A DNA stretch of 64,000 bases, taken from the NCBI RefSeq assembly GCF_002844235.1, contig NZ_PGTS01000002.1, forward strand, positions 806,001 to 870,000, given 5' to 3'. Positions within the stretch are counted from its first letter, which is position 1. Each line of letters begins with the position of its first letter. This DNA is from Thalassospira povalilytica. GTDB lineage: Bacteria; Pseudomonadota; Alphaproteobacteria; Rhodospirillales; Thalassospiraceae. Shown here piece by piece: positions 2,603-23,956 of this stretch. The notes beneath the pieces are model-generated. The model was not told the origin of the DNA, did not search any database, and saw nothing but the letters and a program-made list of their open reading frames with translations. Position numbers and translations under genes: made by a program.

Positions 2603-2610
2603 GCCCAAAA

Positions 2611-2643
2611 GAAAACCCCGCATCGATGACTGCGGGGTTTTCC
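2611..2643. terminator. Bidirectional rho-independent terminator
   Basis: Stem GAAAACCCCGCA / TGCGGGGTTTTC with an eight-base loop, located between the convergent GNAT and thioesterase genes. Confidence 0.8.
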
Positions 2644-2646
2644 ATT

Positions 2647-3144
2647 TTACTTGCGGCGAATGCCGATTTTGCGTCCGACCCCGGACGGGATCGGAAGTTC
2701 GGCATGGGCTTCGCGGATCCGGTTAAGGGTCGTCATGATATCATCGGGAAACGGGGCCGACCGGCGTTCCGCCATATTGATATGCATGGTGATGATTTCG
2801 TTGGTCGAGGCCAGCCAGCCTTCGGTGCCATGGCGCATTTCATGATACATGTGAATGCGTTTCTGATCGCAATCAAGCACCCTTGTATAGATGACGAACG
2901 GGTCATCCTGATGAATTTCCCGATCATAGGTCACATGCATTTCAAGCCCGAAAGTCGACCCGCCGCGCCGTTCGGGATAGGTATATCCCATCCCCACCGC
3001 ATCAAGAAATGCCATCGATCCCAGATCAAAGGCAACGACGTAATAGCCGACATTCATATGCCCGTTGAAATCAATCCATTCCGGTTTGATTTTGCCACGA
3101 AACGCTTCGAGCGGTTCCGGGGCGAACAGATCGGCACTGATCAT
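2647..3144 (-). CDS. Hot-dog fold acyl-CoA thioesterase family protein
   Basis: A 165-residue 4HBT-type thioesterase. The active-site motif DFNGHMNVGYY (around residues 24-34) has the Asp and the GHxN of 4-hydroxybenzoyl-CoA-type enzymes, and the IHMYHEMRH strand is typical of single hot-dog subunits. It should hydrolyse an acyl-CoA in the cytosol. Related domains occur as betainyl-CoA thioesterases beside carnitine dehydrogenases, but nothing here proves that substrate. Its ATG overlaps the stop of the cyclodeaminase gene upstream by four bases (ATGA), so translation is coupled and the two enzymes probably share a pathway. Confidence 0.82.
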   Translation of the reverse strand: MISADLFAPEPLEAFRGKIKPEWIDFNGHMNVGYYVVAFDLGSMAFLDAVGMGYTYPERRGGSTFGLEMHVTYDREIHQDDPFVIYTRVLDCDQKRIHMYHEMRHGTEGWLASTNEIITMHINMAERRSAPFPDDIMTTLNRIREAHAELPIPSGVGRKIGIRRK

Positions 3145-5076: not shown

Positions 5077-5259
5077 TGCGGGACTGAACGTCACAGGATT
5101 TGACGTCCTGTTTCGATCTTTCTTCAATTTTACCCTGTTTGCAATCACTTCGGATAAGGGATGCGTATTTTTACGCGTTTTCATACCCGGCGATTGATTG
5201 GTCGGGACCGGAATGCGAAACTGCTGGAAACAATTTTTATATCAACCGGATAGCACCCC

Positions 5260-5751
5260 ATGTCCCTGCCCCGTTCCTGCCCGTTTCCGTCCACGGATAC
5301 CGACCGCACCCGTATCTGGGAAATGCTGGTTTTGCGTGATATTGCGGCCTTTGTCGCCGCCGACTGGTCAATGGTTGCGGATGATTTCAAGGCAGACGGG
5401 TTTTACGCGATTGATGCCTGCAAATCCGATAATCCCGATGACTGGAAAATGATGTTTCCCGATCTTGGTGCCTATCGCGATGAATGGCTGCGCCAGGCCG
5501 TCGAAGCCCAAAAGATCGACTTTGCCGAGGACCTGTTTGACGGGGTATTTCGCGCCACCAGACTTGAAAAAATCGACATCACCGGCAACCGGGCACTGGT
5601 GCGCAAACATTTTAACGGGCGCATCAAAAAAGCAGACGGCACAGAAGACCGTCTGCTTTGGAAAACCCATTATTACTGCGAAAAGCAGCCGGATGGAAAA
5701 TGGCTGATTACCGGGTTTACCGGCTATCTGCCCAACCATGACCCGGCGTAA
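5260..5751 (+). CDS. NTF2/SnoaL-like protein
   Basis: A 163-residue cytosolic protein without signal peptide or membrane segment. Its helix-rich N-terminal half (IWEMLVLRDIAAFVAADWSMVADDF) followed by strands such as TRLEKIDITGNRALVRKHFNG and LLWKTHYYC fits the NTF2-like cone fold. Proteins of this fold are often isomerases, hydratases or ligand binders. No catalytic assignment is possible. It stands alone on the plus strand between two minus-strand genes. Confidence 0.6.
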   Translation: MSLPRSCPFPSTDTDRTRIWEMLVLRDIAAFVAADWSMVADDFKADGFYAIDACKSDNPDDWKMMFPDLGAYRDEWLRQAVEAQKIDFAEDLFDGVFRATRLEKIDITGNRALVRKHFNGRIKKADGTEDRLLWKTHYYCEKQPDGKWLITGFTGYLPNHDPA

Positions 5752-5783
5752 ATCCCGGGTTCATCCAACACATTTTCGTTTGA

Positions 5784-6854
5784 TTACAGAACCTTGCCGC
5801 GCGCTTCCACATCGACGGTTTGGATCGCATCACCGCGCACCAGATGCACCTGATCAAGCATATTGCTGACCACGCAGACATGGTTGGGGATGATTTCAAT
5901 CCGTTCGCCAATTTCAAACGGGGTCAGACCCGCGTCAAAATGCAAAATGCCGTGTTCTTCGGAGAGCCCGACCACAGCAACATCGGGATGACCAACGACA
6001 TAGCCATACCCGTCAAGTCCCAGAAGATCAGATGTCAGAACCTTGGACCCGGCATCAATGATCGCGCGGCCCGGGGCCGGAAGCGACACGATTTCGGTCA
6101 AAACACGAAGCGCACAATCATCTTCCGCACACACACCACGCGCCATCAGCGACCGGTCATTATAGATATAGGTTCCGATACGGTATTCGGTGATATTGGC
6201 GACCTCGTGGGCCTTCCACATGTCCGGAGTTCCGCCGGAACTTCTGATCGGGCAGTCAATGCCGACCGCCGCAAGCTTGGTCATCGCATCCCCAAAGAAT
6301 GCCGCAACCTTGTCACCACCCCCGGCCGCCGGATAGGTCATCAGACCAGCAAAGGATATGCCCGGAAGGGTCTTGATCTTTTGCGCAAGCTCCAGGGCCG
6401 CCTGCGGGGTCTGAACGCCGCAGCGCCCACCACCGGTATCGCATTCAATCAGGATTTCAAGCGGCTTGGCACTATCGGCAAAGGCACGCGACAGACCATT
6501 GATCACCGGGAGGTTATCGGCCACCACGCGAAGGGTTTTGACCCGGTCAAACAAAGCCCGCAGACGGGCAAGTTTGCGATCCCCCAACACGTTATAGGTC
6601 AGAAGAATGTCATCCATGCCAGCATCGGCCATGACTTCGGCCTCGCCGATTTTCTGACAGGTAATCCCCTTGGCCCCGGCATCAAGTTGCTGTTTGGCAA
6701 AGGCCGGAAGTTTGTGGGTTTTGATATGGGGGCGCAGCGCAATCCCATGCTTGTCGCAATAGGCCTGATAGGCATCGATATTCCGATCGACCGTATCAAG
6801 ATTGACCACCGCACAAGGCGTATCAAGTTCGGGATATTGCGGTGAACGGGTCAT
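5784..6854 (-). CDS. DSD1-family PLP enzyme (D-threonine aldolase / D-serine or D-glucosaminate dehydratase-like)
   Basis: A 356-residue fold-type III PLP enzyme: alanine-racemase-like barrel with the PLP lysine in RPHIKTHK (Lys45), then a D-serine-dehydratase-like C-terminal domain. His325 and Cys327 (NHVCVV) match the zinc/metal ligands of eukaryotic-type D-serine dehydratase. The family covers D-threonine aldolases, D-serine dehydratases and, from memory, the Pseudomonas D-glucosaminate dehydratase. It is last in a minus operon behind an M81 hydrolase and a TRAP importer. The divergent operon encodes RidA and a KDG-kinase-like enzyme, which favours the dehydratase reading: amino-sugar acid to 2-keto-3-deoxy acid plus ammonia. 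The substrate remains an inference. Confidence 0.85.
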   Translation of the reverse strand: MTRSPQYPELDTPCAVVNLDTVDRNIDAYQAYCDKHGIALRPHIKTHKLPAFAKQQLDAGAKGITCQKIGEAEVMADAGMDDILLTYNVLGDRKLARLRALFDRVKTLRVVADNLPVINGLSRAFADSAKPLEILIECDTGGGRCGVQTPQAALELAQKIKTLPGISFAGLMTYPAAGGGDKVAAFFGDAMTKLAAVGIDCPIRSSGGTPDMWKAHEVANITEYRIGTYIYNDRSLMARGVCAEDDCALRVLTEIVSLPAPGRAIIDAGSKVLTSDLLGLDGYGYVVGHPDVAVVGLSEEHGILHFDAGLTPFEIGERIEIIPNHVCVVSNMLDQVHLVRGDAIQTVDVEARGKVL

Positions 6855-6910
6855 GAAAAACGTCCTTTGATATTCGGTGGTGACGCGAAGGGTGCAGTGG
6901 CAATCGACAA

Positions 6911-8380
6911 TCAGCCTGCCTTTTGGGCAAACGGATCATCGACAATCGGCCAAAGCGGACGTTTGACATGACGGTATCCGTTGGTTTTCGGATCCGACGG
7001 ATAAGGACCATGCACATCGATATAGATGATCTCGCCCGCGATCTTGGCGAAGGCATCGTAGAAGTGATTGGTCGATTTGATAAACAGATATTTTTTTGAT
7101 TTCGGATCGATGCCCATGTTGGAAAACAGGCTGGGATCGAAACTTTGCGACCGGTTGGTGTTCAAGATGACCTCACCCCCGCCCGGAAGTTCAATCACCG
7201 CGCAATCGCCAAGCGGCACGATGCTTTGGCCGAAATACTGCCAGGCATCGCGTTCAAGCTTTTTGACCACCACCTCGGCATCAATGGGTGCGCCCGCATG
7301 GGCCCCGGTTTTCCCGCCAAAGCGCAGCGGCAATGTCGCGCCCTCACCAGCCGAGAAACAGGTCTTTACCGCCATCGGATCCCAAAGGGTGCCAAAGGCA
7401 TAATCGGAAAGCCCGCGTTCCATCACCGCACGCAGCAAAATCGTGCTGTCGCCCGGAACCCCGCCACCCGGATTATCCCAGACATCGGTCAGAACAATCG
7501 GCTGTGCATCGGATGCCAATGCCTGATCAAGGGCGGCTTCGGGTTTGAGGAATGTCGGGCGGGTGGCCCCACGGAAACCAAACAACTCAACCCCCAGGTC
7601 TCGTGCTATCTGTGTGGCTTCCGCAGGGTTATTGTTGGTGGTGACAACGACCTTGGCCCCAAGATCGGGAACGTCACCAGCCATAAATCCGTGAATGAAC
7701 GATATCGACAGGATATCGCCCGTGCCTTCCATATCCTTTGCCCGGTCGATAAAGGACCGCATCGGTTCGCGCGATGTCGGCAGAACTTCGATCATGTGGC
7801 AATCAAACACCGCCTTGGTCGGGGTGATTTCACCGCGCAAGGTGCGCAGGACAAGATCAACAACCGCCCGGCCGGTTTCGACAAAATCGGTATGGGGGAA
7901 TTCCTTGAACGCCACGATAATGTCGGCATTGTCGACCCGAAGTGCTGTCAAATGACTATGCGGATCGAAACTGGTGCCGATCACGACATCCGGACCGACC
8001 AGATCGCGAATGCGCGAAATCAGGTCACCTTCGCAATCAAGATAATCCTGCGCCACCATTGCCCCGTGCAGGCCAAGGATCACGCCATCCACCGGCATGG
8101 CCGCGCGCAACTGACCAAGAACCTCGTCACGGAGCTGTTCATACGTCTCGCGGCTGACCAACCCGCCCGGTTCGGCCCAGGTTGCGGTTCCTTCGATCAG
8201 TTCCCAGCCTTCCTTGGCAGCGCGAAGACGGCCTTCGGTAAAGACGGCACTGCACAGCGTCGGTGTGACCGGATGTTGGCCGGGAGGTGCGTAAAAGCTT
8301 TCCTGAAAATCGGAAAAATCAGTTCTTAAAGGGGAAAATGTATTGGTCTCGGTTGCAATCGAGGCGCAAAAAATCCGCAT
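6911..8380 (-). CDS. M81 family metallopeptidase (MlrC-like)
   Basis: A 489-residue protein. The start MRIFCASIATETNTFSP, the GLHGAMVAQD segment and TSFDPHSHLT are hallmarks of M81/MlrC proteins, zinc amidohydrolases named after the microcystin-degrading MlrC. The histidines and acids in GLHGA, DPHSH and the ETNTF motif are the expected metal-site residues. A TTG ten codons upstream is also open; the ATG at 8380 gives the family-typical N-terminus. Between the TRAP genes and the DSD1 enzyme, it probably hydrolyses an amide or related bond in the imported compound before the PLP enzyme acts. A microcystin role is not implied. Confidence 0.87.
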   Translation of the reverse strand: MRIFCASIATETNTFSPLRTDFSDFQESFYAPPGQHPVTPTLCSAVFTEGRLRAAKEGWELIEGTATWAEPGGLVSRETYEQLRDEVLGQLRAAMPVDGVILGLHGAMVAQDYLDCEGDLISRIRDLVGPDVVIGTSFDPHSHLTALRVDNADIIVAFKEFPHTDFVETGRAVVDLVLRTLRGEITPTKAVFDCHMIEVLPTSREPMRSFIDRAKDMEGTGDILSISFIHGFMAGDVPDLGAKVVVTTNNNPAEATQIARDLGVELFGFRGATRPTFLKPEAALDQALASDAQPIVLTDVWDNPGGGVPGDSTILLRAVMERGLSDYAFGTLWDPMAVKTCFSAGEGATLPLRFGGKTGAHAGAPIDAEVVVKKLERDAWQYFGQSIVPLGDCAVIELPGGGEVILNTNRSQSFDPSLFSNMGIDPKSKKYLFIKSTNHFYDAFAKIAGEIIYIDVHGPYPSDPKTNGYRHVKRPLWPIVDDPFAQKAG

Positions 8381-8425
8381 GGCCCGTGCCTTTGTTATTG
8401 GTCTTATCAAATTGGAAAATGGAAT

Positions 8426-8453
8426 CCGAAGGGGCAGAACCCTGCCCCTTCGG
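8426..8453 (-). terminator. Intra-operon hairpin after the TRAP binding-protein gene
   Basis: Perfect 12-base stem CCGAAGGGGCAG / CTGCCCCTTCGG with a four-base loop, between dctP (ends 8467) and the M81 gene (starts 8380). On the minus transcript it is followed only by a weak T-rich stretch, so it may be a partial terminator or an RNA-stabilising end that keeps binding-protein transcript above the downstream enzymes. Confidence 0.6.
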
Positions 8454-8466
8454 CAGATGGAACGGC

Positions 8467-9522
8467 TTATTCCATGTAACGGCTGGCGTTGGCCTTATCG
8501 ACTTCCTGCTGGAACAGGTTCAGAAGCTTGACGCCTTCGTCACCGAGGCTTTCCTGAACGTGTTTGACCACGACCGGCTGGGTTGCTTCTTTGAACTTTT
8601 CACGGTCTTCAGCCGACAGTGCGGTGATTTCCATTTTGTCCTTAAGACCGGCAAGGCCACGATCAGATGCCTCGATCACGCGCGAAACACCACGGCTTGC
8701 AACGACGCAAGACTGCGCAGCGTAACGAATGATTTTCTGCTGATCGGCGGTCAGGCCATCCCAGAAGGTTTTCGACAGCATCATGGTGTAAGGCGAGAAC
8801 AGGTGGTTGGTCAGCGTCAGGTAGCCCTGGACTTCGTTGAACTTGGCAAAGGTCACGGTCGGAACCGGGTTCATCTGACCATCGATCACACCGGTCTGAA
8901 GGCCGGCATAAACTTCACCCCAGGCCATCGGGTATGCTTCTGCACCGAGCGCCTGCATGATTTTCTGATGCGAAGGCAGCGACATGGTACGGATACGGAT
9001 GCCTTTGAAATCTTCAAGCGTCGCGATGGAATGCTTGGAGTTGGTCACAGCAAAGAACCCGCCGGTATCGGGGAAGCCAAGAACCTTGACGTCACCAAGG
9101 GTGCCTTCGATATCCGATGCAAGTGCCGAACCGAACGGACCGTCAAACACATCATAGGTCGATGCGTTGCTGTCGAACGCGAATGCAAGGTTCAGAACAT
9201 CAATGCGCGGATAATAGGATGCCAGCGCACCGGTCGAGGTCAGCGTCGCCTGAATCAGGTCATCGCGCACCATCTGAACATGTTCGGCAGCCGAACCAAG
9301 CTGGTTGGACGGATAGACTTCGACCTTGATTTCGCCATTGGTGTCAGCTTCGACAATATTGGCAAAAACCGCGGTGCAGGCATGGGCCGGGTTTTCAAAC
9401 GGGTCGGCCTTGTTGTCATGCGCGAATTTCAGAACCTTGGTTTCGGCAAACGCCATCGAGGTGCTGCCCATCAGCATCGCAGTGGCCAGGGCAGCAGCGC
9501 CCAAACGCTTTACGGTTTTCAT
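8467..9522 (-). CDS. dctP: TRAP transporter substrate-binding protein (DctP family)
   Basis: A 351-residue periplasmic receptor. Signal peptide MKTVKRLGAAALATAMLMGS...AFA with cleavage about residue 26. The mature part shows the DctP pattern: KFAHDNKADPFENPAH at the start, a GIRIRTMSLPSHQKIMQALGAEAYPMAWGEVY central motif (the Arg of this strand usually binds the ligand carboxylate) and QTGVIDGQMNPV. The start at 9522 has AAGGAGAGG seven bases upstream; an open extension to 9612 would spoil the signal peptide. It delivers a carboxylate to the DctQM permease encoded just upstream. Ligand inferred from context: a sugar acid or amino-sugar acid. Confidence 0.92.
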   Translation of the reverse strand: MKTVKRLGAAALATAMLMGSTSMAFAETKVLKFAHDNKADPFENPAHACTAVFANIVEADTNGEIKVEVYPSNQLGSAAEHVQMVRDDLIQATLTSTGALASYYPRIDVLNLAFAFDSNASTYDVFDGPFGSALASDIEGTLGDVKVLGFPDTGGFFAVTNSKHSIATLEDFKGIRIRTMSLPSHQKIMQALGAEAYPMAWGEVYAGLQTGVIDGQMNPVPTVTFAKFNEVQGYLTLTNHLFSPYTMMLSKTFWDGLTADQQKIIRYAAQSCVVASRGVSRVIEASDRGLAGLKDKMEITALSAEDREKFKEATQPVVVKHVQESLGDEGVKLLNLFQQEVDKANASRYME

Positions 9523-13974: not shown

Positions 13975-16900
13975 CTAGTAATCCAGCCGGTACTGAACAC
14001 CTGCCTTGCTGTCGATTTCAGTGGTTTCGCTGGTCACGCTGATATTTGGCGTGACTTCGATTTCGACTTCAACCCCGCTTGATCCCGGTGTTGATCCGGC
14101 CTTGGTGCCGACATAGACGCCCTTGGTCAGGTATTTGCCGACCTTGACCTCGGGCCCGTTTTCACCGCCACCGACCTGAAGCACATCAGCACCGATAAAG
14201 CGCCGGACACTTCCGACCACATCAAGTCCACTGCCCCCGCCTGAAAGCTCGTTCACCGCACTGGCCAGCTGCACGGCTTCAACAGCACTCAGGCTGCCCT
14301 GGGATTTGCCAAACAGGACCTGGGACAGAATTTCATCTTCGGGCAAGGACGGCACCGACGTCAGAACCAGTTCAGGATCGCTTGACGGGCCCTGGAACCC
14401 GGCGGTGACCTCCAGATCGGCCGTGGTATAGACGCCTTTGATATCAAGCATCGGATCGGGTGGTGATCCCCCGGCAAAGGTGATTTTGGAATCCTTGATG
14501 ACGAATGTCTTGCCGATGATGTCAAGCTGCCCGCGCAAGGCGGACAATTGACCGACAATGCTGGGATCATCGGTGGTGCCCGAAATTTCAAGGCGCCCGC
14601 CCCATTCGGAATCAAGCCCCTTGCCGCGCACAAACAAGCGACCGGGAATATCAACGGTCACGTCAAGGTTACCGGAAAATCCATTATCCTTTTCAGCCGC
14701 CTTACGGGCTTCTTCCTTTTCTTCCTCGTCAGGCAGATTGGCGACTTCGATTGTCGGAACCGATTCCGGCAGCGCGAGCGACAAATCCACCTCGCCACGC
14801 TGAACGGTAACCGTGCTTTCGATATCGGCACTTTCCTGATTGCCGGTGACCTTGGTGTCAACATCGGCCCAGAATTGCAGTTCATCGACCCGCGACAGGG
14901 CGAAATTGCGCAAGGTGGCGGTTACGTCATAGGCCGCCTCGCCGCCATCCTTCACCGTCAGGTCAACCGATGCATCAAGTTTGCCGTTGCCGCCATCGGT
15001 TGCGGTGATTGACGGGATCGAAAGCCCGTTCTGATCAAACTCGCCCGCAAGCGTAACCTGTTCAAGGATCGTGCCATAAACAAGGTTCTCGTAATGCCCG
15101 TCAGACAGGCCGAGATTGCCTTTCCAGCCGATATCATCAAGTGTTCCGACAACATCAAGTTCCAGATTGATCGTGCCCGATACCTGATGATCCGGCGCCG
15201 GTACATAGGGCCAGAATTCGGCAATTTCGCCATTCATCCGCACACTTGCCGATACCGGTGCGGCAAGATCGGGACTGAAATTCTGCGCAAGGACCGAAAC
15301 CGCAAGCGGGACTGTCCCCTGTGCCGACAGGATTTTGACATCGCGATTGCCAAGATTGGCCGTCCCGTTAAGGATCCCCTTGGCAAGATCAAGGTTAAGA
15401 ACCATTTCGAACGGCTCCATATCCTTGACCGTGTTTGCGGTAATGCCACTGATCCGGCCTTTGACCGCAGCCACGGGCAAAGTGCCCTTGGTCTCGCGCA
15501 AGTTGGCCGACAGATTTGCAACACCGCTTAGCCCGTCATACCCGGCAATACGGCCCCATGGCCCCAGATCGACATCATCAAGCGAAAGGTCACCGGCAAT
15601 CGATTTCTGACCTGCTTCCTGCGCAACCGTTGCCACCAGATGACCGGACCCGACGGTTACATCAGCATCCAGGTTTTGCTGACCGTTCGCTGCCATGACA
15701 AATTGCAACGGACGGCGCAGTTTGATGGTCTGATCGCTAAGCGCGAAGTCGAACTTGTCCGCGACCACACGGATATCATCCCCCAACCCGATATTGGCAG
15801 CCAAATCCGCCGACATCGGAACATTGCCCTGATAAAATCCGGTCGTGTTCATCGTGACGTCAAAGGCATCCAGCCCACCCATAATCCCGACGGTAACGTC
15901 ATCAATGGCGATGGGTGAAAAGACGATATCCTTGCCATCAATATCGGCCTTGATATCGGGCTGGGCAAAGGCATCACGGATTGTCGCGGCAATATTCACA
16001 TTCTCGATCATTGCCGGATTGCCATCGGGCTGCTGATCAATACGCAATCCTTTGGCCAAGGCCGACAGCGTGACGGTTTGACGCCCGTCTTCCGGCACAA
16101 AGCCGATATCGCCGCTGATCGTTCCATTGGCAAATGGCCCCCCGAAATCGCCAAGCATTTCGGCATCAAGCTTGGTTAGCTCAAGACTGCCCCGCATCGG
16201 GACGGCATACCCCGGCAGAACAAGTTCACCGCCCAGATCCAGAAATTCACCGCGCAACAGAATGTCGCTGATCAACAGATCATTTTCCGGCAGGCGCACA
16301 TTCGCCGCGATGTCATAGGCATGCTTGCCCAGATTGAACGAACCGCTATTGCGCAGCGCCAATACTGCCTGATCCGACCATGACATGCGGCTCGATAACA
16401 CCACATTATCAATGCGTTGTCCGCCGGCTTTGACATTTGGCACCCGCAGGTCAATCTGACCAGGCGGGGCGGCAATATCCCCGTCCAGACGCACTGAAAG
16501 CTTTGCCGGTGCAATCGTCACCCCGATATCGGGTGGCACCGTGCCCGGCGCGACATCAAGATCGGCCGTAACGGCAAGACGTTCAAATTCGTTTGTGATG
16601 TCGACTTTGATCGGCCCATTAATCGTTGCGGCATTCACCGCATCCAGATCAACCATCAGATCAAGGTTGGGCAGAAGCGCAACCTTGCCCGAAATCGTGG
16701 GGGACGGGCCGACAATCCGGTCAAGATCGGAAATCCCGAACGTGGTTTGCGTGCCCGAAACCGTCACATCACTTTTCAGACCGTCCTGTTCCGACCAGCT
16801 CAGATTATCAAGCGTAACCTTCCCCTGCCCGCCAAGATCAAGACCGGAAATCGGCGCAAAGATCGACAGATCGGCAACATCACCGACCAGCTTGGCGCCG

Positions 16901-18411
16901 TTAAGCGAAAATGTGTCATCAATTTCAGCAGAACCGTTGACCGCCATTTGCGGCGCAGTCAGCACCAGTTTGCCGACCGATATCCTCGAAAAATCCGGGT
17001 TGACCAGCGCATTGAGCGAAAGTTCCTGATCCGCACCCAAAAATGCGCCAAGATCGCTGTCCTGCCAGACGGTGCCCGACGTCGATGCATCAAGGTTTGC
17101 CGCAACCGGCCCGTCCCCATCAGATGCCGGCATATTGGCGCGCACTTGCATGCGTGCGATCGTCGAAACCGGTGTTGCAACATCCTGACCATCAATCGCA
17201 ACGACAAGACCGGGCATGGCAAGATCGCCATTGGCCTCGACCGACAGTGCAACCTGCCCCCAGCGTACCGCATCATCAAGCAGCCCGGACAAGGCCGGAT
17301 CAATATCACCATCCAGCCGTGCGGCAATCAGATTTTCGGCCAAATCAAGATGTGCACTTGCCGACAGATCAAGCACATCTGCCATCGCCACCGTGATGCG
17401 ATCAAGGGCAAGTTTTTGATCATCCGCATTGAATGCCCCGCCAATGCCAAGGGCAATATCCCCCCTTAGCGGTTCGGGCAAATCACCGGAAATACGGTCA
17501 AATGTCTGAACCCCGCCATCCAGCGAAAAGGCCAGAACATCGGATGACAATTGCACACCAACATCGCTGGCCAGCGCCGCATAACCGTCTGCGGTCAGTT
17601 CAAGTTTGCCGTTCCAGTCATCGGCCGGACCATCCCCGGCAAGCTTGATGCGTACATCGGGTGCAATATCGGGCGTCACCCCCGCAAGGGTCATGACCAC
17701 ACCTTCGCGGCCCAGTTCCCCGTCAATTCTGGCCGACAGTCGCTGTTTGGGACCATCAAAATCAAGATCGACATCAAGCTGATCGCTGCCACCATCAAGT
17801 GGCTGCAAATTCAGCGCAGCTGTCGCCGAAAGATTGGTGCCGATCGCGCCATTGGCCTTAAGGCTGTATAAAAATCCCTTGCCCGAAACCGGATCAACCA
17901 GCGCAATTTCGCGAAGATCAATCGCATCAACCGACACAGCAAGCGGCAAACTGAACCCGCCACCGTCATCTGGGGCTTCGTCATCGGGGGTATCGGGAAG
18001 ACTGCCATCAGGGAGCACGATGCTGGCGGTTTGCAAACCGACGTGATTGATTTGCAATTTCCCGCCCAAAAGGGCCAGTGGCGACCAGTCAAAATCGACC
18101 TGGTCAAGATCCAGGTGAAAGCCGTCTGCCGGGCGTTCCATTCGCAAGCCATCAAGTGTCAGCCCGGTCCACAAGCTGCCCTCAATCCGGCCAAGCTCAA
18201 ATGAACTGTCGGTCGCAGCCGAAACCGTTTCATTGATCATCGGCGTCAATGCGCGCAATACCGGTCCGGTCCCGGCAATCCCGACAACAGCAGCCACGGC
18301 AAGGACGGTACCACCAACACCAAACGCACCGTAACGCGCCCATTTCAGGGCTGGTGTACGGCGTTCATGTTCATGCGGCTTATTCTCTGACGGAAGTTCA
18401 GACCTGGTCAA
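13975..18411 (-). CDS. tamB: TamB, translocation and assembly module subunit (AsmA-like, DUF490)
   Basis: A 1478-residue envelope protein. A single N-terminal membrane helix (about 24-46) anchors it in the inner membrane. A very long series of beta repeats rich in Asp-Leu-Asp and Gly-Xaa-Leu patterns follows, as expected for the lipid-groove beta-taco of AsmA-like proteins. The conserved C-terminal TamB domain contains LSGTTDDPSIVGQL-like strands, PELVLTSVPSLPEDEILSQVLFG and a terminal YRLDY. Together with TamA it spans the periplasm in outer-membrane protein assembly or phospholipid traffic. Its ATG overlaps the tamA stop by four bases. Confidence 0.93.
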   Translation of the reverse strand: MTRSELPSENKPHEHERRTPALKWARYGAFGVGGTVLAVAAVVGIAGTGPVLRALTPMINETVSAATDSSFELGRIEGSLWTGLTLDGLRMERPADGFHLDLDQVDFDWSPLALLGGKLQINHVGLQTASIVLPDGSLPDTPDDEAPDDGGGFSLPLAVSVDAIDLREIALVDPVSGKGFLYSLKANGAIGTNLSATAALNLQPLDGGSDQLDVDLDFDGPKQRLSARIDGELGREGVVMTLAGVTPDIAPDVRIKLAGDGPADDWNGKLELTADGYAALASDVGVQLSSDVLAFSLDGGVQTFDRISGDLPEPLRGDIALGIGGAFNADDQKLALDRITVAMADVLDLSASAHLDLAENLIAARLDGDIDPALSGLLDDAVRWGQVALSVEANGDLAMPGLVVAIDGQDVATPVSTIARMQVRANMPASDGDGPVAANLDASTSGTVWQDSDLGAFLGADQELSLNALVNPDFSRISVGKLVLTAPQMAVNGSAEIDDTFSLNGAKLVGDVADLSIFAPISGLDLGGQGKVTLDNLSWSEQDGLKSDVTVSGTQTTFGISDLDRIVGPSPTISGKVALLPNLDLMVDLDAVNAATINGPIKVDITNEFERLAVTADLDVAPGTVPPDIGVTIAPAKLSVRLDGDIAAPPGQIDLRVPNVKAGGQRIDNVVLSSRMSWSDQAVLALRNSGSFNLGKHAYDIAANVRLPENDLLISDILLRGEFLDLGGELVLPGYAVPMRGSLELTKLDAEMLGDFGGPFANGTISGDIGFVPEDGRQTVTLSALAKGLRIDQQPDGNPAMIENVNIAATIRDAFAQPDIKADIDGKDIVFSPIAIDDVTVGIMGGLDAFDVTMNTTGFYQGNVPMSADLAANIGLGDDIRVVADKFDFALSDQTIKLRRPLQFVMAANGQQNLDADVTVGSGHLVATVAQEAGQKSIAGDLSLDDVDLGPWGRIAGYDGLSGVANLSANLRETKGTLPVAAVKGRISGITANTVKDMEPFEMVLNLDLAKGILNGTANLGNRDVKILSAQGTVPLAVSVLAQNFSPDLAAPVSASVRMNGEIAEFWPYVPAPDHQVSGTINLELDVVGTLDDIGWKGNLGLSDGHYENLVYGTILEQVTLAGEFDQNGLSIPSITATDGGNGKLDASVDLTVKDGGEAAYDVTATLRNFALSRVDELQFWADVDTKVTGNQESADIESTVTVQRGEVDLSLALPESVPTIEVANLPDEEEKEEARKAAEKDNGFSGNLDVTVDIPGRLFVRGKGLDSEWGGRLEISGTTDDPSIVGQLSALRGQLDIIGKTFVIKDSKITFAGGSPPDPMLDIKGVYTTADLEVTAGFQGPSSDPELVLTSVPSLPEDEILSQVLFGKSQGSLSAVEAVQLASAVNELSGGGSGLDVVGSVRRFIGADVLQVGGGENGPEVKVGKYLTKGVYVGTKAGSTPGSSGVEVEIEVTPNISVTSETTEIDSKAGVQYRLDY

Positions 18412-20486
18412 AATGCCTGCCCCAGACTGATATAGAATTGATAGTCATCATCGACGTTTTCACGCTTATCAAGTGGCACGGCAACGTCAAAGCGCAATGG
18501 CCCGACGGCGGTGTAATACCGGAAACCGAGACCGGCCGCCCATAACAGGGAAATGTCTTCGGGTTCGCTGCGTGCATAGACATTGCCGCCCTCGACAAAC
18601 GGCACAACGCCGAAACTTTCGGTGACCCGGGCACGGAATTCAAAACCGAGTTCAAGAACCGAACGCCCGCCAAGCGGATCATGATCATCATCAAGGGGGC
18701 CGACTTTCTGATATTCATAACCACGGATCGACCCGCCGCCACCGGAATAATAGCGTTTGTTCGATGGCAAATTGCCGCGTTCCTCACCAATGATTGTCCC
18801 GGTCCGCGCCCGTGCGGCCAAAACATAATCCCCGTCATCATCAATCGAAAGATATTGCGACCCGGACAGCGACACCGATGTGAAATTGGTATCATGGTCG
18901 GTCAGCCCCATATAGGGCGACACATTGATTTCAAACCGCGTTCCGCGCGTGGGATCAAGCGGATTGTCCGTATTGTCATGGCGCAGGATACCGCGCAAAC
19001 CGGCAAGGTAGAATTCCTCGTTCGGGGAATCCGACCCGGTCAGGTCGGAATATTCCGCCGTCACGCCAAGGGTCGTCGACCAGTTTTCACCAAGTGGACG
19101 TTCGACACCGACAAAACTGTCAACCGTTGCCCCCTGATAGGCATCGGTATCGTTGTTTTTTGCATTCGCCTCGGCCACCAGGGCCTGTTTGCGTTGCAGG
19201 AATTGCGGCTTTTTGAATTCCGCACTTAGACCCTGTTCAAGGCTTGAGGCATCGGCGCCAAGCCGCAACCTTTCACCGGCACCGAATAGGTTTCGATGCT
19301 CCCAGAATGCGTTGGCGCCCGGACCATCCGCGGTCGAAAAATCAACGCCGCCGCCGATTGACCGCATTTTGCGTTCGACCACATTGATTTCGACGGGGAT
19401 CTCGCCGCTTTCGCCCACCGGGCCTGCGACCTTGACGATCACACTGTCAAACAGGTTGGTCTGCGCCAGATCGCGCCGCGTTTCGCGCACCCGTTCAGGA
19501 CTGTATTGCTCGCCGGCCCGCCAACTGCGATATCCCGCGATGAAATCCTGATCGACCTCGTCGGCACCATTGACCGTAACCGCGCCGAAATTGGCCTTTG
19601 GCCCGGTTTCAAAGGCATATTTGATCGAAATGGTTTTCTGTGCGGTATCGGCCATTACCGTGCGCTTGGTCGCCTTGACCAGCGGATAGCCCTGATCACG
19701 CAGGATATCGACACCGAATTGTTCACCAAGAATGATCGGTTCTGCAGTGGCGCGCTGACCGATTTGCAGGCGGGTTCTTTCAAGTTCGGCATCGGTTGCC
19801 GGGCGTTCGACGACTTCGTCCGGGCGCACAATCACCAGGTCAACCGACGCAATCAGATATGGCGCACCGGTATCGATCATATAGGTCAGAACAAGCGGTG
19901 TGGGTGCGCCATCGCCATTCTCACCATTATTACCGTTATCACCGTTTGCACCATTGTCGCGGTGATCAGCTTCATCAACCGTGTCTTGCGACGCGGTGCC
20001 ATTCACCGTGTCATTTGCGGTGACATCGTCATTTTCATTATTCTCGCTGCCCGCCGGATTGCCGTTTTCTTCGACGGGCGCGTCATCACCGGTTTTTTCG
20101 GTGATCTCGAACGTGATCTGGCCGTCATAGAATCCGTTGGATCGCAGAACCGCCTGGAACCGTTCAACATCATCTTCGGCCCGGCGTTGCAGTCCGGCAC
20201 GCGATGCGGTCGGGCGTGACTGCAACCGGCGCGCGGTACTGACCGCGTTCAATGCCTCGATCAGCTGTTCTTCATGATCGTCAATGCCGGTCAGTTCCAC
20301 CTCATAGGGGATGGTGGTGCGCAGATCAGCCGGGGCTTGTGATTCGCCATTGCCAAACCCGAAATCCAGCCCGCCAATTCCTTCGTCAGATGAGCACGCA
20401 GCCAGCATCGTTCCCGCCATCAATAGCGGAACGATCGCAGCAGATCGCCCATATGATCCAAATTTGCGGCGGATGCGGCTTGTCAA
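18408..20486 (-). CDS. tamA: TamA, Omp85-family outer-membrane assembly protein
   Basis: A 692-residue Omp85 protein: POTRA repeats in the first half, then a C-terminal 16-strand barrel with the family RGYEYQKVGPLDDDHDPLGG and GGGSIRGYE (lid-lock type) motifs, ending in Phe (SLGQAF) as outer-membrane barrels do. Two oddities: the N-terminus ends in a lipobox-like LLMAGTMLAAC (Cys31), unusual for TamA, and residues about 133-195 are an Asp/Asn/Gly/Glu-rich low-complexity insert within the POTRA region. The only good start is TTG at 20486, preceded by AAGGGA; the next Met is at residue 24, inside the signal. Co-transcribed with tamB. Confidence 0.9.
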   Translation of the reverse strand: MTSRIRRKFGSYGRSAAIVPLLMAGTMLAACSSDEGIGGLDFGFGNGESQAPADLRTTIPYEVELTGIDDHEEQLIEALNAVSTARRLQSRPTASRAGLQRRAEDDVERFQAVLRSNGFYDGQITFEITEKTGDDAPVEENGNPAGSENNENDDVTANDTVNGTASQDTVDEADHRDNGANGDNGNNGENGDGAPTPLVLTYMIDTGAPYLIASVDLVIVRPDEVVERPATDAELERTRLQIGQRATAEPIILGEQFGVDILRDQGYPLVKATKRTVMADTAQKTISIKYAFETGPKANFGAVTVNGADEVDQDFIAGYRSWRAGEQYSPERVRETRRDLAQTNLFDSVIVKVAGPVGESGEIPVEINVVERKMRSIGGGVDFSTADGPGANAFWEHRNLFGAGERLRLGADASSLEQGLSAEFKKPQFLQRKQALVAEANAKNNDTDAYQGATVDSFVGVERPLGENWSTTLGVTAEYSDLTGSDSPNEEFYLAGLRGILRHDNTDNPLDPTRGTRFEINVSPYMGLTDHDTNFTSVSLSGSQYLSIDDDGDYVLAARARTGTIIGEERGNLPSNKRYYSGGGGSIRGYEYQKVGPLDDDHDPLGGRSVLELGFEFRARVTESFGVVPFVEGGNVYARSEPEDISLLWAAGLGFRYYTAVGPLRFDVAVPLDKRENVDDDYQFYISLGQAF

Positions 20487-20787
20487 ACGTCATATCCCTT
20501 GTGCTTTGTGTCCGGTCAGGTGACGCCAGTTAACATCGTTTGGCGTTCTTTTATACCCTTTGATCCCATCAGGGATTGTTGCAAACAGAATTGTTGTTAT
20601 TTTCAAAACAGCGAACTGAAAACACCATATTTTCATTCATCTTACAGGTCGAGTGTCACCAGTGCCACTTCCCATGAAAAAATGGCATGGCTGTGAACAA
20701 TATTCGCACTTGTGAGCTTTTTGGTTTGAGCGTACCGGGAGTTGCGCGCAACATATGCATCACATCCAATCGCAGGAGGTCCGTCTC
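20487..20787. other. Intergenic region between divergent tamA and the GNAT-RimK gene
   Basis: About 300 AT-richer bases with no convincing gene. It must hold both promoters. The only structure I can point to is a short imperfect inverted repeat, CCATG...CATGG, at 20672-20690. Confidence 0.5.
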
Positions 20788-22758
20788 GTGGCTTCGACCC
20801 AGACCAATACCGTCATTATTCGCAACGCAGTACGTGCCGACCTTGATGGGCTTTGCGCCCTTGAGAACGCCAATTTTCAAAGCGACCTGATTTCGCGCGC
20901 CTCTTTTTCGCGCTTCTTGCGTCAGGCATCTGCGCGTCTGCTTGTTGCGGATGCCGGCGATGCCGACAAACCGGCCATTGTCGGATACGGATTGCTGCTG
21001 TTGCGGGCCAATGCGGTCGTCGCCCGGATTTATTCGCTTGCGATTTCACAGGAATGGCGCGGCAAAGGTCTTGGCACACAGCTTCTGGCGGGGCTTGAGA
21101 ATCTGGCAATGGATGCCGGTTGCCATCGTATGCGCCTTGAAGTGCGGGTTCAAAACGACACCGCGCGCAATCTGTATGAGCGCCACGGCTATCAGAAGGT
21201 CGCCGATCTTCCGGGCTATTACGAAGATGGCGGTGATGGCATTCGCCTTGAACATGCGCTCTATGACGGTCAGACCGATGTTACCCCGGCGGTTGCCACC
21301 GGTGCGCCGCTGATCCTTGTTGATCGCCTGTCCGATCAGCGTTTTGCTGTTTCGGGTGCGCGCGTCATGCGGGTGCGCGACTATCTTGCGCTTGATCACG
21401 GGGTGCGCAACCGCCGTGTGATCAACCTGTGCCAATCCTATGAATATCTGTCGCGCGGCTATTATTGCAGTCTTCTGGCTGCTGCGCGTGCCGAACGTGT
21501 CATTCCCGAGGCCGATGTGCTTCTCGACCTTAACTGGAAACGTCTTCAGAAAACCGCGCGTTCGGAACTCAGCCCGCAGATCATTGATGCGCTGGCAAAA
21601 TCGGGCCATGGCCCGGAACAGGCACCGGACCATATTGATGTCTATTTCGGACGCACCGCCGACAAACGGTTCCGCCAGATCGCCGAACGGGCGTTTGACC
21701 AGTTCCGCTGCCCGATCCTGCGCCTGCATCTGAACAAGCAGGACCGCAAGATTTTGCGCGAAATCGAAGCCCCGTCCCTGGGTCAGCTTGATGACAGCAA
21801 CCTTGCCGAATTTGAAGCAGCCCTTCGCGCCTATTTGCGCGGACGTGTGCGCAAGCAGGGCAACGTCACCCCACCGACCGCCCTGGTCGCGATCCTGCAT
21901 GACCCGGACGAAGTTTTGCCGCCGTCAGACAAGGAAGCATTGGCAAACTTTGTTCAGGCCGCATCCGATCTTGGCGCCAAGGCCGAACTGATCACGGCCA
22001 AGGATTTCCATCATCTTTCGGAATTTGATGCCCTTTTGATCCGCGAAACAACGGCCCTTGATCACCACACCTATCGCTTTGCCAAACGCGCGGTAAAGGA
22101 AGGCATTCCGGTGATTGATGATCCGGACTCGATGTTGCGTTGTACCAACAAGGTCTATCTGGCCGAGTTGCTGCGCACCCATCGTATCCCTGCCCCGAAA
22201 AGTGCGATTTTTGACAAGCGCCGCATTGCCGAAATCGGTCAGCAATTCAGCTTCCCGTCGGTTCTTAAAGTGCCGGATGGCTGCTTCTCGCGCGGGGTGC
22301 GCAAGGTGAAATCCCCCGAACACCTTAATGAAGTCGCGACCGAGATGTTCAAGAACTCGGAACTTCTGGTCATTCAGGAATATGTCGAAACGACATTTGA
22401 CTGGCGTATCGGTGTTTTGGGCGGCGAGCCGATCTTTGCCAGCCGCTATTTCATGGCGCCGGGCCATTGGCAGATCGTCAAACATGAAGATGATGGCAAA
22501 AGTTTCGAGGAAGGCGGGTTTGAAACCGTGGCCGTCGAAGACGCGCCTGCCGATATCGTTGCAACCGCCCTTGCCGCGGCCCGCCTGATGGGCGATGGCC
22601 TTTATGGTGTGGATGTCAAGGAAACCCCGCATGGCCCGATGGTGATCGAGGTTAATGACAACCCCAATGTCGATGCCGGGGTCGAGGACGTGGTTCTGGG
22701 CATGGAGCTATATCGCCGCATCATTGCGCATCTTCTGGGCAAGATTGCCCGCCCCTGA
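20788..22758 (+). CDS. GNAT acetyltransferase fused to RimK-like ATP-grasp ligase
   Basis: A 656-residue three-part protein. Residues about 8-160 form a GNAT domain with the acetyl-CoA loop QEWRGKGLGTQLL and NLYERHGYQKV. The middle (about 170-320) resembles the RimK-like ATP-grasp N-terminal domain, with RDYLALDHGVRNRRVINLCQ and SRGYYCSLLAAARAERVIP. The C-terminal third is ATP-grasp: FPSVLKVPDGCFSRGV, LLVIQEYVETTFDWRIGVL and the metal-binding GVDVKE and VIEVNDNPN motifs. RimK relatives ligate an amino acid to a carboxylate, as in glutamate tailing. GTG at 20788 follows AGGAGG with eight-base spacing and is preferred over ATG 20755. It converges with a GNAT-C39 peptidase. Confidence 0.88.
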   Translation: MASTQTNTVIIRNAVRADLDGLCALENANFQSDLISRASFSRFLRQASARLLVADAGDADKPAIVGYGLLLLRANAVVARIYSLAISQEWRGKGLGTQLLAGLENLAMDAGCHRMRLEVRVQNDTARNLYERHGYQKVADLPGYYEDGGDGIRLEHALYDGQTDVTPAVATGAPLILVDRLSDQRFAVSGARVMRVRDYLALDHGVRNRRVINLCQSYEYLSRGYYCSLLAAARAERVIPEADVLLDLNWKRLQKTARSELSPQIIDALAKSGHGPEQAPDHIDVYFGRTADKRFRQIAERAFDQFRCPILRLHLNKQDRKILREIEAPSLGQLDDSNLAEFEAALRAYLRGRVRKQGNVTPPTALVAILHDPDEVLPPSDKEALANFVQAASDLGAKAELITAKDFHHLSEFDALLIRETTALDHHTYRFAKRAVKEGIPVIDDPDSMLRCTNKVYLAELLRTHRIPAPKSAIFDKRRIAEIGQQFSFPSVLKVPDGCFSRGVRKVKSPEHLNEVATEMFKNSELLVIQEYVETTFDWRIGVLGGEPIFASRYFMAPGHWQIVKHEDDGKSFEEGGFETVAVEDAPADIVATALAAARLMGDGLYGVDVKETPHGPMVIEVNDNPNVDAGVEDVVLGMELYRRIIAHLLGKIARP

Positions 22759-22774
22759 ATTCTCAATCGCACAA

Positions 22775-22805
22775 TAAAAAAGGCCGGGTTTACCCGGCCT
22801 TTTTG
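22775..22805. terminator. Bidirectional terminator overlapping the 3' end of the C39 gene
   Basis: Stem AAAAAGGCCGGGT / ACCCGGCCTTTTT with a two-base loop, between the convergent ligase and peptidase genes. The last codons and stop of the minus-strand peptidase gene (22790) lie inside the stem. Confidence 0.85.
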
Positions 22806-23956
22806 TCTATGAAGACGGCGGCTTGCAGTTTGTCACGCCCGTATCTTGCCATCAGATCAAACTCGTTGCGCAGGATCGGCACCGACAAACAATCACTGCC
22901 ATTAAACGGTTCGTGATCATCGCCGATATCGGGATCACTCACATAGACAAACCGGTCATCAAAGCCCGACACCACGACCCAATGCGGGATCTTGTCACCG
23001 TAAATGCGGTACTGGCTGATCAGGACCAGCGCCATCTTGCCCTGTTTGGCGCGTTCTTCGATTTCGGCCACGCCAAACGGTCCGGTCGTCACCGCAATGC
23101 CGGCATCCTGGGCCTGACGAGCAAAATCATAATGCACCAGTTCGACCACTTCGCGGTTTTTGGGTTTGCGCACCGTATCAACAAAAAGCGGCCCGTCGCG
23201 ACTGCTTAGCACCTCGGCACCAAATCCGCGACGATTGGCCGCCAATGCCAGTCCCAGCGGACCACATCCGCCATGACCCGATGTCATGAACACGGTGGTT
23301 GCTTCGCGCCACAGGGCAATTTCCAGATTGCGATCAAGTTCAAGTGACGGATCAAGCGCATTCATCGCCATCATCAGGGCCGCCGGGCCGCAGGTAAATG
23401 GCAATGTCTGGTGATAGAAATGAATGGGGGATGGCAGACGCAAGGCATTGGGCACCAATACCTTTTCCATGCGCAACGCGTCGGAATGATCGGGGTAATA
23501 ATCCGGATAAAGCGCAAATTCGCGGTAACCCGCCGCATGAAACAGCGAAATGGCGCGATCATTTTTCTGACTGACTTCCAGACGCAGGATCGGCGCGCCG
23601 AAATCAAGGCTGAGTTCTTCGGCCCGGATGATCAATTGCTGCCCGATCCCCTGCCCGCGCCATTGCGGCGATACCGCCAGGGAATAAAGACGGGCAAGCG
23701 CGACATTGCGCCGGAAAATCACCAGCGCATAGCCAACCACGCCATCATCGGTGCAGGCAACGCACAGACGCGCGGTTTCGCTTCCGACAAAGCGTTTGAA
23801 TGCGCGCCGGTTCAGCCGGTCAATTTCAAAGGATTGATCTTCAATTTCGCACAGCGCATCAATGTCGCCAGGCACGGCCAACCGGATATCAATTTTGGCC
23901 TTTTCACGCGTATTCAAAGTCACACCCACAGCAGAAAATCTGACACACGGTATCAT
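22790..23956 (-). CDS. GNAT acetyltransferase fused to C39-like cysteine peptidase
   Basis: A 388-residue two-domain protein. Residues about 22-165 are a GNAT domain (SPQWRGQGIGQQLI acetyl-CoA loop, FHAAGY) very similar in layout to that of the convergent ligase. Residues about 178-385 are a C39-like papain-fold peptidase: Gln183 (oxyanion), Cys189 in TCGPAALMMAM, His325 in PHWVVVSG and Asp341 in SDPD form the expected catalytic set. There is no signal peptide, membrane segment or ABC domain, so it is a stand-alone cytosolic enzyme. Likely partner of the ATP-grasp ligase in making, trimming or reversing a peptide modification. ATG at 23956 has AGGA close upstream. Confidence 0.86.
   Translation of the reverse strand: MIPCVRFSAVGVTLNTREKAKIDIRLAVPGDIDALCEIEDQSFEIDRLNRRAFKRFVGSETARLCVACTDDGVVGYALVIFRRNVALARLYSLAVSPQWRGQGIGQQLIIRAEELSLDFGAPILRLEVSQKNDRAISLFHAAGYREFALYPDYYPDHSDALRMEKVLVPNALRLPSPIHFYHQTLPFTCGPAALMMAMNALDPSLELDRNLEIALWREATTVFMTSGHGGCGPLGLALAANRRGFGAEVLSSRDGPLFVDTVRKPKNREVVELVHYDFARQAQDAGIAVTTGPFGVAEIEERAKQGKMALVLISQYRIYGDKIPHWVVVSGFDDRFVYVSDPDIGDDHEPFNGSDCLSVPILRNEFDLMARYGRDKLQAAVFIDKKAG

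Follow-up and report, generated by a model that had tools for sequence, protein, structure and literature searches.

What could a predicted amino-acid ligase and a predicted peptidase do together when both carry an acetyltransferase domain? This question is raised by two genes of Thalassospira povalilytica in the window, that is, the whole 64,000-nucleotide stretch of DNA analysed here. According to the open reading frames and their Pfam matches, a plus-strand GNAT-RLAN-ATP-grasp gene and a minus-strand GNAT-DUF3335 gene are convergent, lying tail to tail. The initial annotation had proposed a writer and an eraser or maturase acting on one substrate, for instance a peptide tail or a small peptide metabolite. 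The features are collected in Table 1, where the residues of the ligase are counted from ATG 20755. GTG 20788 lies eight bases past an AGGAGG sequence and is probably the true start of the ligase, rather than ATG 20755. The stop codons of the two genes are 31 bases apart with a hairpin between them, which is likely a terminator common to both. A promoter scan gave hits no more numerous than in shuffled sequence.

Table 1. Features of the two convergent genes and their coordinates in the window
Feature	Position	Strand	Remarks
GNAT-RLAN-RimK/LysX-type ATP-grasp ligase ORF	20755..22758	+	667 aa from ATG 20755
Shine-Dalgarno-like AGGAGG	20774..20779	+	precedes GTG 20788; read from sequence
Ligase GNAT domain	20839..21234	+	residues 29-160 by RimI model; related to RimI/Ard1 N-alpha-acetyltransferases
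RLAN domain PF14401	21376..21819	+	residues 208-355
ATP-grasp catalytic domain	22141..22725	+	residues 463-657
Hairpin GGCCGGG-TTTA-CCCGGCC, A and T runs flanking	22782..22804	.	read from sequence; not listed by the scan
GNAT-DUF3335 (C39/papain-like cysteine hydrolase) ORF	22790..23956	-	388 aa
DUF3335 domain	22808..23422	-	residues 179-383; Q183, C189, H325, D341
Peptidase GNAT domain	23468..23866	-	residues 31-163; Phe at 139, Tyr in the majority of relatives

The window proteins pass the Pfam cut-offs of both the RLAN and the DUF3335 family. In the ligase, a GNAT domain (Acetyltransf_1, residues 54-146, E 2.2e-17) precedes the RLAN domain (125.8 bits, cut-off 25), which is joined to a RimK-type ATP-grasp domain (PF08443, residues 465-657, 34.1 bits, cut-off 21), and K505, E632 and N634 of the latter were invariant in 29 aligned sequences. 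A fold search with the structural model (mean pLDDT 91, pTM 0.56) placed LysX, ArgX, RimK and D-Ala-D-Ala ligases closest to the ATP-grasp part; searches with the RLAN and papain-like parts returned lists filled by GNAT or ATP-grasp matches. Although LysX/ArgX, of LysW-dependent lysine and arginine synthesis, provide the closest solved fold, the ligase differs from LysX in NCBIfam score (TIGR02144, 75.4 bits versus a cut-off of 275.6), and it differs from RimK in falling under the RimK cut-off as well (TIGR00768, 76.5 versus 143.4 bits) and in its RLAN and GNAT domains.

The second protein scored 271.6 bits against a cut-off of 25 for DUF3335 ('Peptidase_C39 like', PF11814) and also matched Peptidase_C39_2 (PF13529, 27.1 bits, cut-off 24), with a GNAT domain at residues 35-144 (E 7.7e-15). 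Among 22 DUF3335 sequences, Q183, C189 and H325 were invariant and D341 nearly so; we take these Gln, Cys, His and Asp to be the papain-like residues, with roles assigned from the papain fold, and DUF3335 is a predicted peptidase with intact catalytic residues. Its structural model had a mean pLDDT of 88 and a pTM of 0.77. Pfam matches and residue positions confirmed the initial description of a GNAT-ligase beside a GNAT-C39-like peptidase with intact Cys189, His325 and Asp341. None of four proteins matched PADLOC anti-phage defence models at E 0.01 or better. The fusion as such has precedent, as PMC10318531 describes DUF3335 members as often GNAT-fused, with reference to Iyer et al. 2009 (doi 10.1039/b917682a). 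No experimental function of RLAN or DUF3335 proteins turned up in the results of our searches of open-access literature.

The two GNAT domains of the window are alike beyond chance by sequence profile. A profile including both gave them 207 and 200 bits against 59 for the genome's next GNAT, and a profile built on 12 free GNATs found in other genomes, including neither window sequence, gave 174 and 167 bits; together with the tree, these scores bore out the claim that both genes carry similar GNATs, which form a common subfamily. On the tree, the ligase-fused GNAT falls with its Cohaesibacter counterpart (support 89/91, slightly below the tool's mark) rather than with the peptidase-fused GNAT of its own genus, so a recent duplication inside Thalassospira is unsupported. 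Besides Thalassospira and Cohaesibacter, GNAT-ligase fusions are found in Bacteroidota and Balneolota, which stand at other places on the trees; one origin for all of them is possible. Phages gave weak GNAT matches only, in 3 records.

Structurally, the peptidase GNAT matched Ard1 (VIA-align Z 23.2, rmsd 2.4, 150 aligned) and RimI (Z 22.9, rmsd 2.0, 147 aligned), so the fold is RimI-like, although both GNATs scored below the RimI cut-off (TIGR01575, 78.2 and 72.5 versus 86.4 bits). The Glu aligned with the catalytic Glu of RimI was retained in 92 of 92 GNATs, and the acetyl-CoA loop was mostly retained. The column of F139, which we take to be the position of the catalytic Tyr of RimI, has Tyr in 22 of 23 free and 14 of 14 ligase-fused GNATs, and Phe in 17 and Val in 1 of 55 peptidase-fused copies. 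Because the window's peptidase-fused copy is one of those with Phe, acetylation by it is doubtful on sequence grounds; calling this GNAT 'dead' would be weak, as the change concerns one position and is not specific to the window. It has also been considered that the GNATs are non-catalytic, acting as acetyl-CoA-dependent regulators or scaffolds that tie the ligase to metabolic state. The domain does occur on the ligase, on the peptidase or free, and the window peptidase has the Phe; nevertheless, the universal Glu, the largely kept acetyl-CoA loop and the Tyr of the free and ligase-fused copies make such a role improbable. We likewise found no support for the acetyl-CoA-sensing module of the initial annotation, and the replacement of GNAT by GCS2 in Planctomycetota (see below) suggests an N-acylating enzyme.

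GNAT-ATP-grasp fusions also work with a peptidase in N-acetylglutaminylglutamine amide synthesis, and the locus could be a remote parallel making an N-acetyl-dipeptide osmolyte. Like the TIGR03103 synthetase, the window ligase has GNAT and ATP-grasp in one chain and in the same order, as suggested by the profile positions of TIGR03103, and a peptidase is adjacent. Moreover, the same GNAT subfamily was found in 8 RLAN-free genomes, and in all 8 it stood next to mdoG, a gene of osmoregulated glucans (4 of these mdoG genes were in the profile and 4 were not). However, the ligase scored only 18.6 bits, in its GNAT part, against the TIGR03103 cut-off of 569 and is not a member, no gene in the whole genome passed that cut-off, and among 155 ligase loci L206 alone had mdoG. 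We therefore regard an osmolyte pathway as unlikely. Because 8 RLAN-free genomes carry the GNAT with mdoG, the subfamily is not bound to peptide ligation everywhere.

The pairing of the two genes held up across genomes, and the rare co-occurrence that the initial annotation had named as refuting evidence was not seen. RLAN was found in 72, DUF3335 in 58 and both in 57 of 398 Pseudomonadota genomes (hypergeometric P about 1e-53, relatedness ignored), and in 55 of the 57 the two were less than 5 kb apart, in four orientations and 18 families, which rules out a chance neighbourhood. On a quick ligase tree, with locus L066 (no GNAT in view) left out, there were at least 11 arrangement changes. A GNAT was present in all 72 RLAN genomes and at 73 of their 75 ligase loci, as part of the peptidase, free-standing or ligase-fused. 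Locus members went into the profiles used for GNAT, C39, GCS2, mdoG and DUF2817, and these members match by construction. Of 75 ligase loci with GNAT, 19 were without DUF3335, and GCS2 was not found at any of the 75 Pseudomonadota loci. Thus the constant core in the sampled Pseudomonadota is GNAT plus ligase, and DUF3335 is dispensable; the proposed pair is adjacent far beyond chance, but the unit does not consist mainly of this pair. A few ligases had no cap enzyme in view: L186 and L202 among the 80 named loci (the best 80 of 584 by query likeness) and L240 on a Pseudomonas aeruginosa plasmid, with DUF3335 on a different contig in the L202 genome. The same was seen at L183, L201 and L220, but these lie close to contig ends.

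Layouts were tandem, divergent or convergent, with genes overlapping or almost touching at many loci. C39 peptidases and ATP-grasp ligases are both found in ribosomal-peptide clusters, and the ligase could in principle modify, and the C39-like peptidase cut, a ribosomally made precursor. From a comparison that covered ORFs of at least 70 aa, we consider this very improbable, as the varied layouts offer no constant precursor slot and the genes so often overlap or almost touch.

In the genus of Pseudomonas koreensis, the ligase was found in 54 of 119 species, with GNAT on the same contig in 54 of 54; a gap of 243-263 bp separated the matched stretches of GNAT and ligase in 53 species, and one of 2166 bp in the remaining species. 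The DUF3335 search covered 8 of the 54 ligase loci, namely L250, which has DUF3335, and 7 whose GNAT frames are short; in these 7 species DUF3335 was not found in the fetched stretch. At the other 46 loci, the GNAT frames are 371-424 residues, long enough for a DUF3335 fusion. Compact versions of the unit occur in Pseudomonas and Azospirillum. In P. aeruginosa, the RLAN gene may, to judge from gene order, be PA1345, a guess not used as evidence. Table 1 of PMC12802237 gives PA1345 ('Hypothetical ATP-binding protein') a CpxR motif but no DAP-Seq peak.

A different version was observed in Planctomycetota, to which the second-phylum loci were assigned through L219 and L221. RLAN was found in 93 of 392 genomes, weak matches counted, and we analysed 40 of the 41 highest-scoring loci, skipping one at a contig edge. 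A C39_2 peptidase lies immediately upstream of the ligase at 32 of the 40 and a glutamate-cysteine-ligase-like GCS2 gene immediately downstream at 34, while GNAT-DUF3335 is present at 4. GCS2 and GNAT were never found together in the fetched stretches of the 40 loci, and two of them (L299 and L302, the latter identical to L221) had no cap enzyme in view. Since the Planctomycetota ligase usually has GCS2 and no GNAT, the two look, from sequence, to be alternatives for an N-acylating ('capping') step. On the ligase tree, the exchange can be explained by one change and is therefore a single event and not a recurrent pattern. The GCS2 family is best known for small-molecule gamma-glutamyl ligation. 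Pairing of the ligase with a papain-like hydrolase recurs in this phylum with a different C39 family.

Further neighbours bear on the nature of the substrate. DUF2817 (PF10994), which carries zinc-carboxypeptidase-like residues, recurred at loci with DUF3335: of 160 loci 22 had it, 15 in the phylum sample of 80 and 7 among the 80 named ones. In five named loci it lies immediately beside or overlaps GNAT-DUF3335. DUF155 (PF02582) was found with DUF3335 at 14 of 80 phylum-sample and 3 of 80 named loci, a count that omits two more matches near 35 bits; in the phylum sample, f38, f39 and f40 are the only families with either of them. The locus neighbours also include a GGDEF/EAL cluster of 16 members. 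At ligase loci without DUF3335, 118 neighbours (picked from 149 listed ORFs, at least 120 aa, within 2 kb) contained no family of more than 3 members among the 25 of 105 families listed. No recurring substrate-protein gene was seen among the compared ORFs of at least 70 aa, and none of the neighbours reveals what the product is.

An extra peptidase-like gene such as DUF2817 would fit a small peptide as well as a protein tail. In a protein-tail system like that of RimK, the ligase would extend a protein C-terminus, the peptidase and, where present, DUF2817 would trim it, and GNAT would act on the same target. The ATP-grasp domain is indeed near RimK and LysX/ArgX, enzymes of protein C-termini, the GNAT fold is closest to protein N-terminal acetyltransferases, and the carboxypeptidase-like DUF2817 would suit an eraser. 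According to PMC12239564, RimK-RimB (ribosomal S6 glutamylation) and RloABC likewise combine a RimK-group ATP-grasp ligase with a peptidase gene, and RimB takes the glutamates off again; their peptidases are retropepsin-like, whereas that of the window is papain-like. Considering that the ligase stays well under the RimK cut-off, that the loci lack a recurring substrate-protein gene in the compared size range and that the Planctomycetota partner belongs to a small-molecule ligation family, a protein tail is rather unlikely, though it keeps some weight. Between the two substrates named in the initial annotation, the small peptide fits better.

The two genes are found together, and next to each other, far more often than by chance, so one pathway or substrate for both is likely, as had been proposed. 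The reading that we prefer, at a probability of roughly 0.45, is a predicted cytosolic peptide-making unit that would yield an N-capped short peptide, with papain-like turnover or transpeptidation; we infer the reactions, the order of the steps and a small peptide, rather than a tail, as the product. A GNAT of the dedicated subfamily would N-acetylate an amino acid or short peptide at its alpha-amine. The RLAN-ATP-grasp enzyme would use ATP to activate a carboxylate and couple it to another amine, and the DUF3335 domain would hydrolyse or transpeptidate the product for turnover, editing or maturation. In Planctomycetota, the GCS2 gamma-glutamyl-type ligase would act in the GNAT's role, capping the substrate of the ligase. 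The cap would come before ligation, like GshA before GshB in glutathione synthesis, and the product may be glutathione- or N-acetyl-dipeptide-like.

The glutathione/phytochelatin route comprises GCS, the ATP-grasp enzyme GshB and the papain-like phytochelatin synthase. The Planctomycetota version likewise has GCS2, ATP-grasp and papain-like proteins, which is an analogy only, whereas the window locus differs in having GNAT, and GCS2 was not found at the 75 Pseudomonadota loci. More broadly, we tentatively suggest that an RLAN ligase may be served by one of two unrelated caps, the N-acetyltransferase in Pseudomonadota and Bacteroidota or the GCS2 ligase in Planctomycetota. It would also have one of two papain-like hydrolases, themselves distant relatives, and sometimes DUF2817, in a system that resembles the glutathione/phytochelatin route or makes an N-acetyl-peptide, its product being unnamed.

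Three features emerged from this analysis, namely the constant GNAT-ligase link, the C39-RLAN-GCS2 version and the absence of DUF3335 from some species of one genus; they concern a unit that is widespread and almost unstudied. If the preferred reading is true, about one fifth of the sampled species in two large phyla (72/398 and 93/392, weak matches included) would make a capped peptide that has no name yet, and which enzymes make and which break it could be read from the gene partnership. The GNAT/GCS2 exchange would then predict that phyla differ in the cap, acetyl or gamma-glutamyl, of a related product.

The two genes of the window, in a host genome of 4.44 Mb in 20 contigs, converge tail to tail, with their stop codons separated by 31 bases and a hairpin in the gap. 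The start proposed for the ligase gene in the initial annotation, 20788, is likely right; it is a GTG preceded by AGGAGG. The nearest relative of this gene was found in Thalassospira profundimaris PR54-5, matching at 96% over residues 3–667 and at 99% over the ligase part. The pair is flanked on one side by the TamB and TamA genes, whose frames overlap by a few bases, and on the opposite side by a phosphatase-like gene, a YgaP-like membrane protein, TenA and a further GNAT.

Features of the window and of the loci compared with it (L, locus; G, genome)
Feature	Location	Position	Strand	Remark
GNAT + RLAN + ATP-grasp protein	window	20755-22758	+	domains by Pfam
GNAT + DUF3335 protein	window	22790-23956	-	domains by Pfam
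tamB and tamA	window	13975-20486	-	
GNAT	L249 (G402, Pseudomonas)	4469-5014		
GNAT-DUF3335, free GNAT and ligase	L131 (G348)	4719-8786		all at a single locus
Solitary RLAN-ATP-grasp gene	L240 (Pseudomonas aeruginosa plasmid)	6983-8572		
GNAT after mdoG	L239 (Methylobacterium bullatum plasmid)	4962-5450		4-base overlap
mdoG homologue	L206 (Inquilinus limosus)	2315-4036		~1.8 kb from GNAT-DUF3335 gene
DUF155 loci	L084-L105, L131, L134, L139, L174, L190, L193			

Among 398 Pseudomonadota genomes, RLAN was detected in 72 and DUF3335 in 58, and 57 carried both; the sole DUF3335 genome without RLAN (G008) had a short DUF3335 frame without a GNAT. Co-occurrence of the pair, a check named in the initial annotation, was borne out. 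The two genes lay within 5 kb of each other in 55 of these 57 genomes, the remaining two having them on separate contigs (G193) or 2.1 Mb apart (G006). The 55 adjacent pairs were spread over 18 families. In tandem, DUF3335 preceded the ligase in 28 pairs and followed it in 5; another 18 pairs were divergent and 4 convergent, all 4 from the window's genus. A quick ligase tree called for at least 11 changes of arrangement. The RLAN and DUF3335 genes thus look functionally linked, because adjacency persists across changing layouts and shared descent alone would preserve a single arrangement. Three extra DUF3335 copies were remote from any RLAN, one in G274 and two in G197. The N-terminal parts of the remote DUF3335 genes (L140, L141 and L137; G274, two in G197, and G008) were unmatched by the dedicated GNAT subfamily of these loci (system GNAT) or matched at 20.7 bits only.

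Of 75 ligase loci, 73 had the system GNAT, either as a free protein or joined to DUF3335 or to the ligase; of the other two, L066 had a GNAT-DUF3335 gene on another contig and L102 lay at a contig edge. Genome-wide, it occurred in all 72 RLAN genomes and in 8 genomes without RLAN. Across 119 species of the genus of Pseudomonas koreensis, the ligase was patchy (54 species), and the GNAT was found in those 54 plus one more (G402), while DUF3335 was absent from the fetched stretch in 7 of the 54 carrying GNAT and ligase. On the sample tree, the presence or absence of DUF3335 changed at least 8 times. Since the GNAT nearly always accompanies the ligase while DUF3335 may be present or missing, the core in Pseudomonadota is GNAT plus ligase, with the papain-like domain as a frequent but optional companion.

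Some loci showed other compositions. The GNAT frame in G402 stops just past the domain, with neither ligase nor DUF3335 within 10 kb. Three genomes (G146, G062 and G058; loci L069, L071 and L073) had two ligase copies each, of which one was accompanied by GNAT-DUF3335 and the other by a free GNAT. The solitary plasmid ligase of P. aeruginosa lies near ggt and glutamate/aspartate transport genes; no GNAT or DUF3335 was found in the 15.5 kb around it, nor any system GNAT on the entire plasmid.

The peptidase triad Cys189/His325/Asp341, initially described as intact, held up in an alignment of 22 GNAT-DUF3335 proteins, in which C189 and H325, together with Q183, were invariant and D341 nearly so. 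The ATP-grasp residues K505, E632 and N634 were invariant in 29 aligned ligases. The Glu aligned with the catalytic Glu of RimI was kept in 92/92 system GNATs. Its Tyr partner was present in 14/14 ligase-fused, 22/23 free and 37/55 peptidase-fused GNATs; the peptidase-fused GNAT of the window has Phe there.

In a 95-row tree, the 92 system GNATs separated from three other, long-branched GNATs of the window genome with support of 92/83, below the tool's star. The two window GNATs belong to one subfamily, but a sister grouping within Thalassospira was not supported: the ligase-fused GNATs of this genus clustered with a Cohaesibacter GNAT (89/91, slightly under the star), apart from the peptidase-fused ones. 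The GNAT-ligase fusion is also present in Bacteroidota and Balneolota, and the starred branches are compatible with what may be a single origin. Another such fusion (L157) lies on a contig binned as Thermoplasmatota, which is likely mis-binned because its ligase clusters with alphaproteobacterial ligases.

Among the named loci (the best 80 of 584 by likeness to the query), 72 had a GNAT of at least 60 bits. Below this mark were L183, L186, L197 (55.5 bits), L201, L202, L219, L220 and L221; the ligase was near a contig end in L183, L201 and L220, DUF3335 was on another contig in the L202 genome, and a C39_2 peptidase frame overlapped the ligase by 26 bases in L221.

RLAN was detected in 93 of 392 genomes of the Planctomycetota, the phylum of L221, some weak matches counted. 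At 40 strong RLAN loci (stretches up to 8 kb), a C39_2 peptidase of the L221 kind lay directly upstream of the ligase on the same strand, frequently overlapping it, in 32, and an enzyme of the GCS2 family (PF04107; the three proteins scanned gave E 1.1e-22 to 6e-28) directly downstream on the same strand in 34. GNAT-DUF3335 occurred at 4 of the 40, never together with GCS2 within these stretches, and two loci (L299 and L302) had neither GCS2 nor GNAT in the fetched stretches. GCS2 and the Planctomycetota-type C39 were absent from the 75 Pseudomonadota loci and from the named loci except L219 and L221. All 23 aligned C39 proteins matched PF13529 and kept Q12, C18, H177 and D195, and the C39 profile was related to that of DUF3335 (hhalign probability 96.7%, E 4.5e-10). 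On the ligase tree (FastTree), a single change accounted for the swap between GNAT and GCS2. The ligases of the four GNAT-DUF3335 loci nested among Pseudomonadota and Campylobacterota ligases (FastTree), so that these loci appear as if GNAT-DUF3335-ligase had been transferred as a whole cassette.

DUF2817 (PF10994) was found at 22 of 160 loci (15/80 phylum-sample, 7/80 named), including L139, where DUF3335 is present and the ligase absent; it adjoins or overlaps GNAT-DUF3335 in L193, L194, L200, L216 and L227. Its alignment (14 sequences) kept HGVEG, further on DxHTG, and LEFGT, motifs similar to those of M14-type zinc carboxypeptidases (His-x-x-Glu, His and Glu). DUF155 (PF02582; RMND1/Sif2-type) was found at 17 of 160 loci (14/80 and 3/80). 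Neither was seen near the window genes.

In all 8 RLAN-free GNAT genomes (L230–L237), which come from a single family within the window's class, the GNAT starts at the end of mdoG/opgG. The arrangement may reflect a second use of the GNAT or else point to an envelope or osmotic role.

The domain families of both window proteins are already named in Pfam. A classification paper (PMC10318531) states that DUF3335 members are often GNAT-fused and that the GNATs might serve as peptide ligases or in acetylation, crediting a 2009 comparative study for the fusion remark. Identities as RimK, LysX, RimI and NAGGN synthetase were ruled out by curated cut-offs, and because the window genes miss these cut-offs, we file the unit as a variant among amino-acid ligase gene clusters with peptidases.

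The GNAT fold was nearest to Ard1 and RimI (VIA-align Z 22.9–23.2, rmsd 1.5–2.4, 145–150 residues in the first five rows). For the ATP-grasp part, LysX, ArgX and RimK were closest, and D-Ala-D-Ala ligases also ranked near the top. Ard1 and RimI acetylate alpha-amines. That GCS2 occupies the place of the GNAT suggests a shared type of substrate, which each would N-acylate either ahead of the ligase step or following it. The papain-like partner, found in both versions yet dispensable, could act in turnover, editing or transpeptidation. The main rival is that the substrate is a protein instead of a small peptide; for a small peptide, the smallest product consistent with this scheme would be an N-capped di- or tripeptide.
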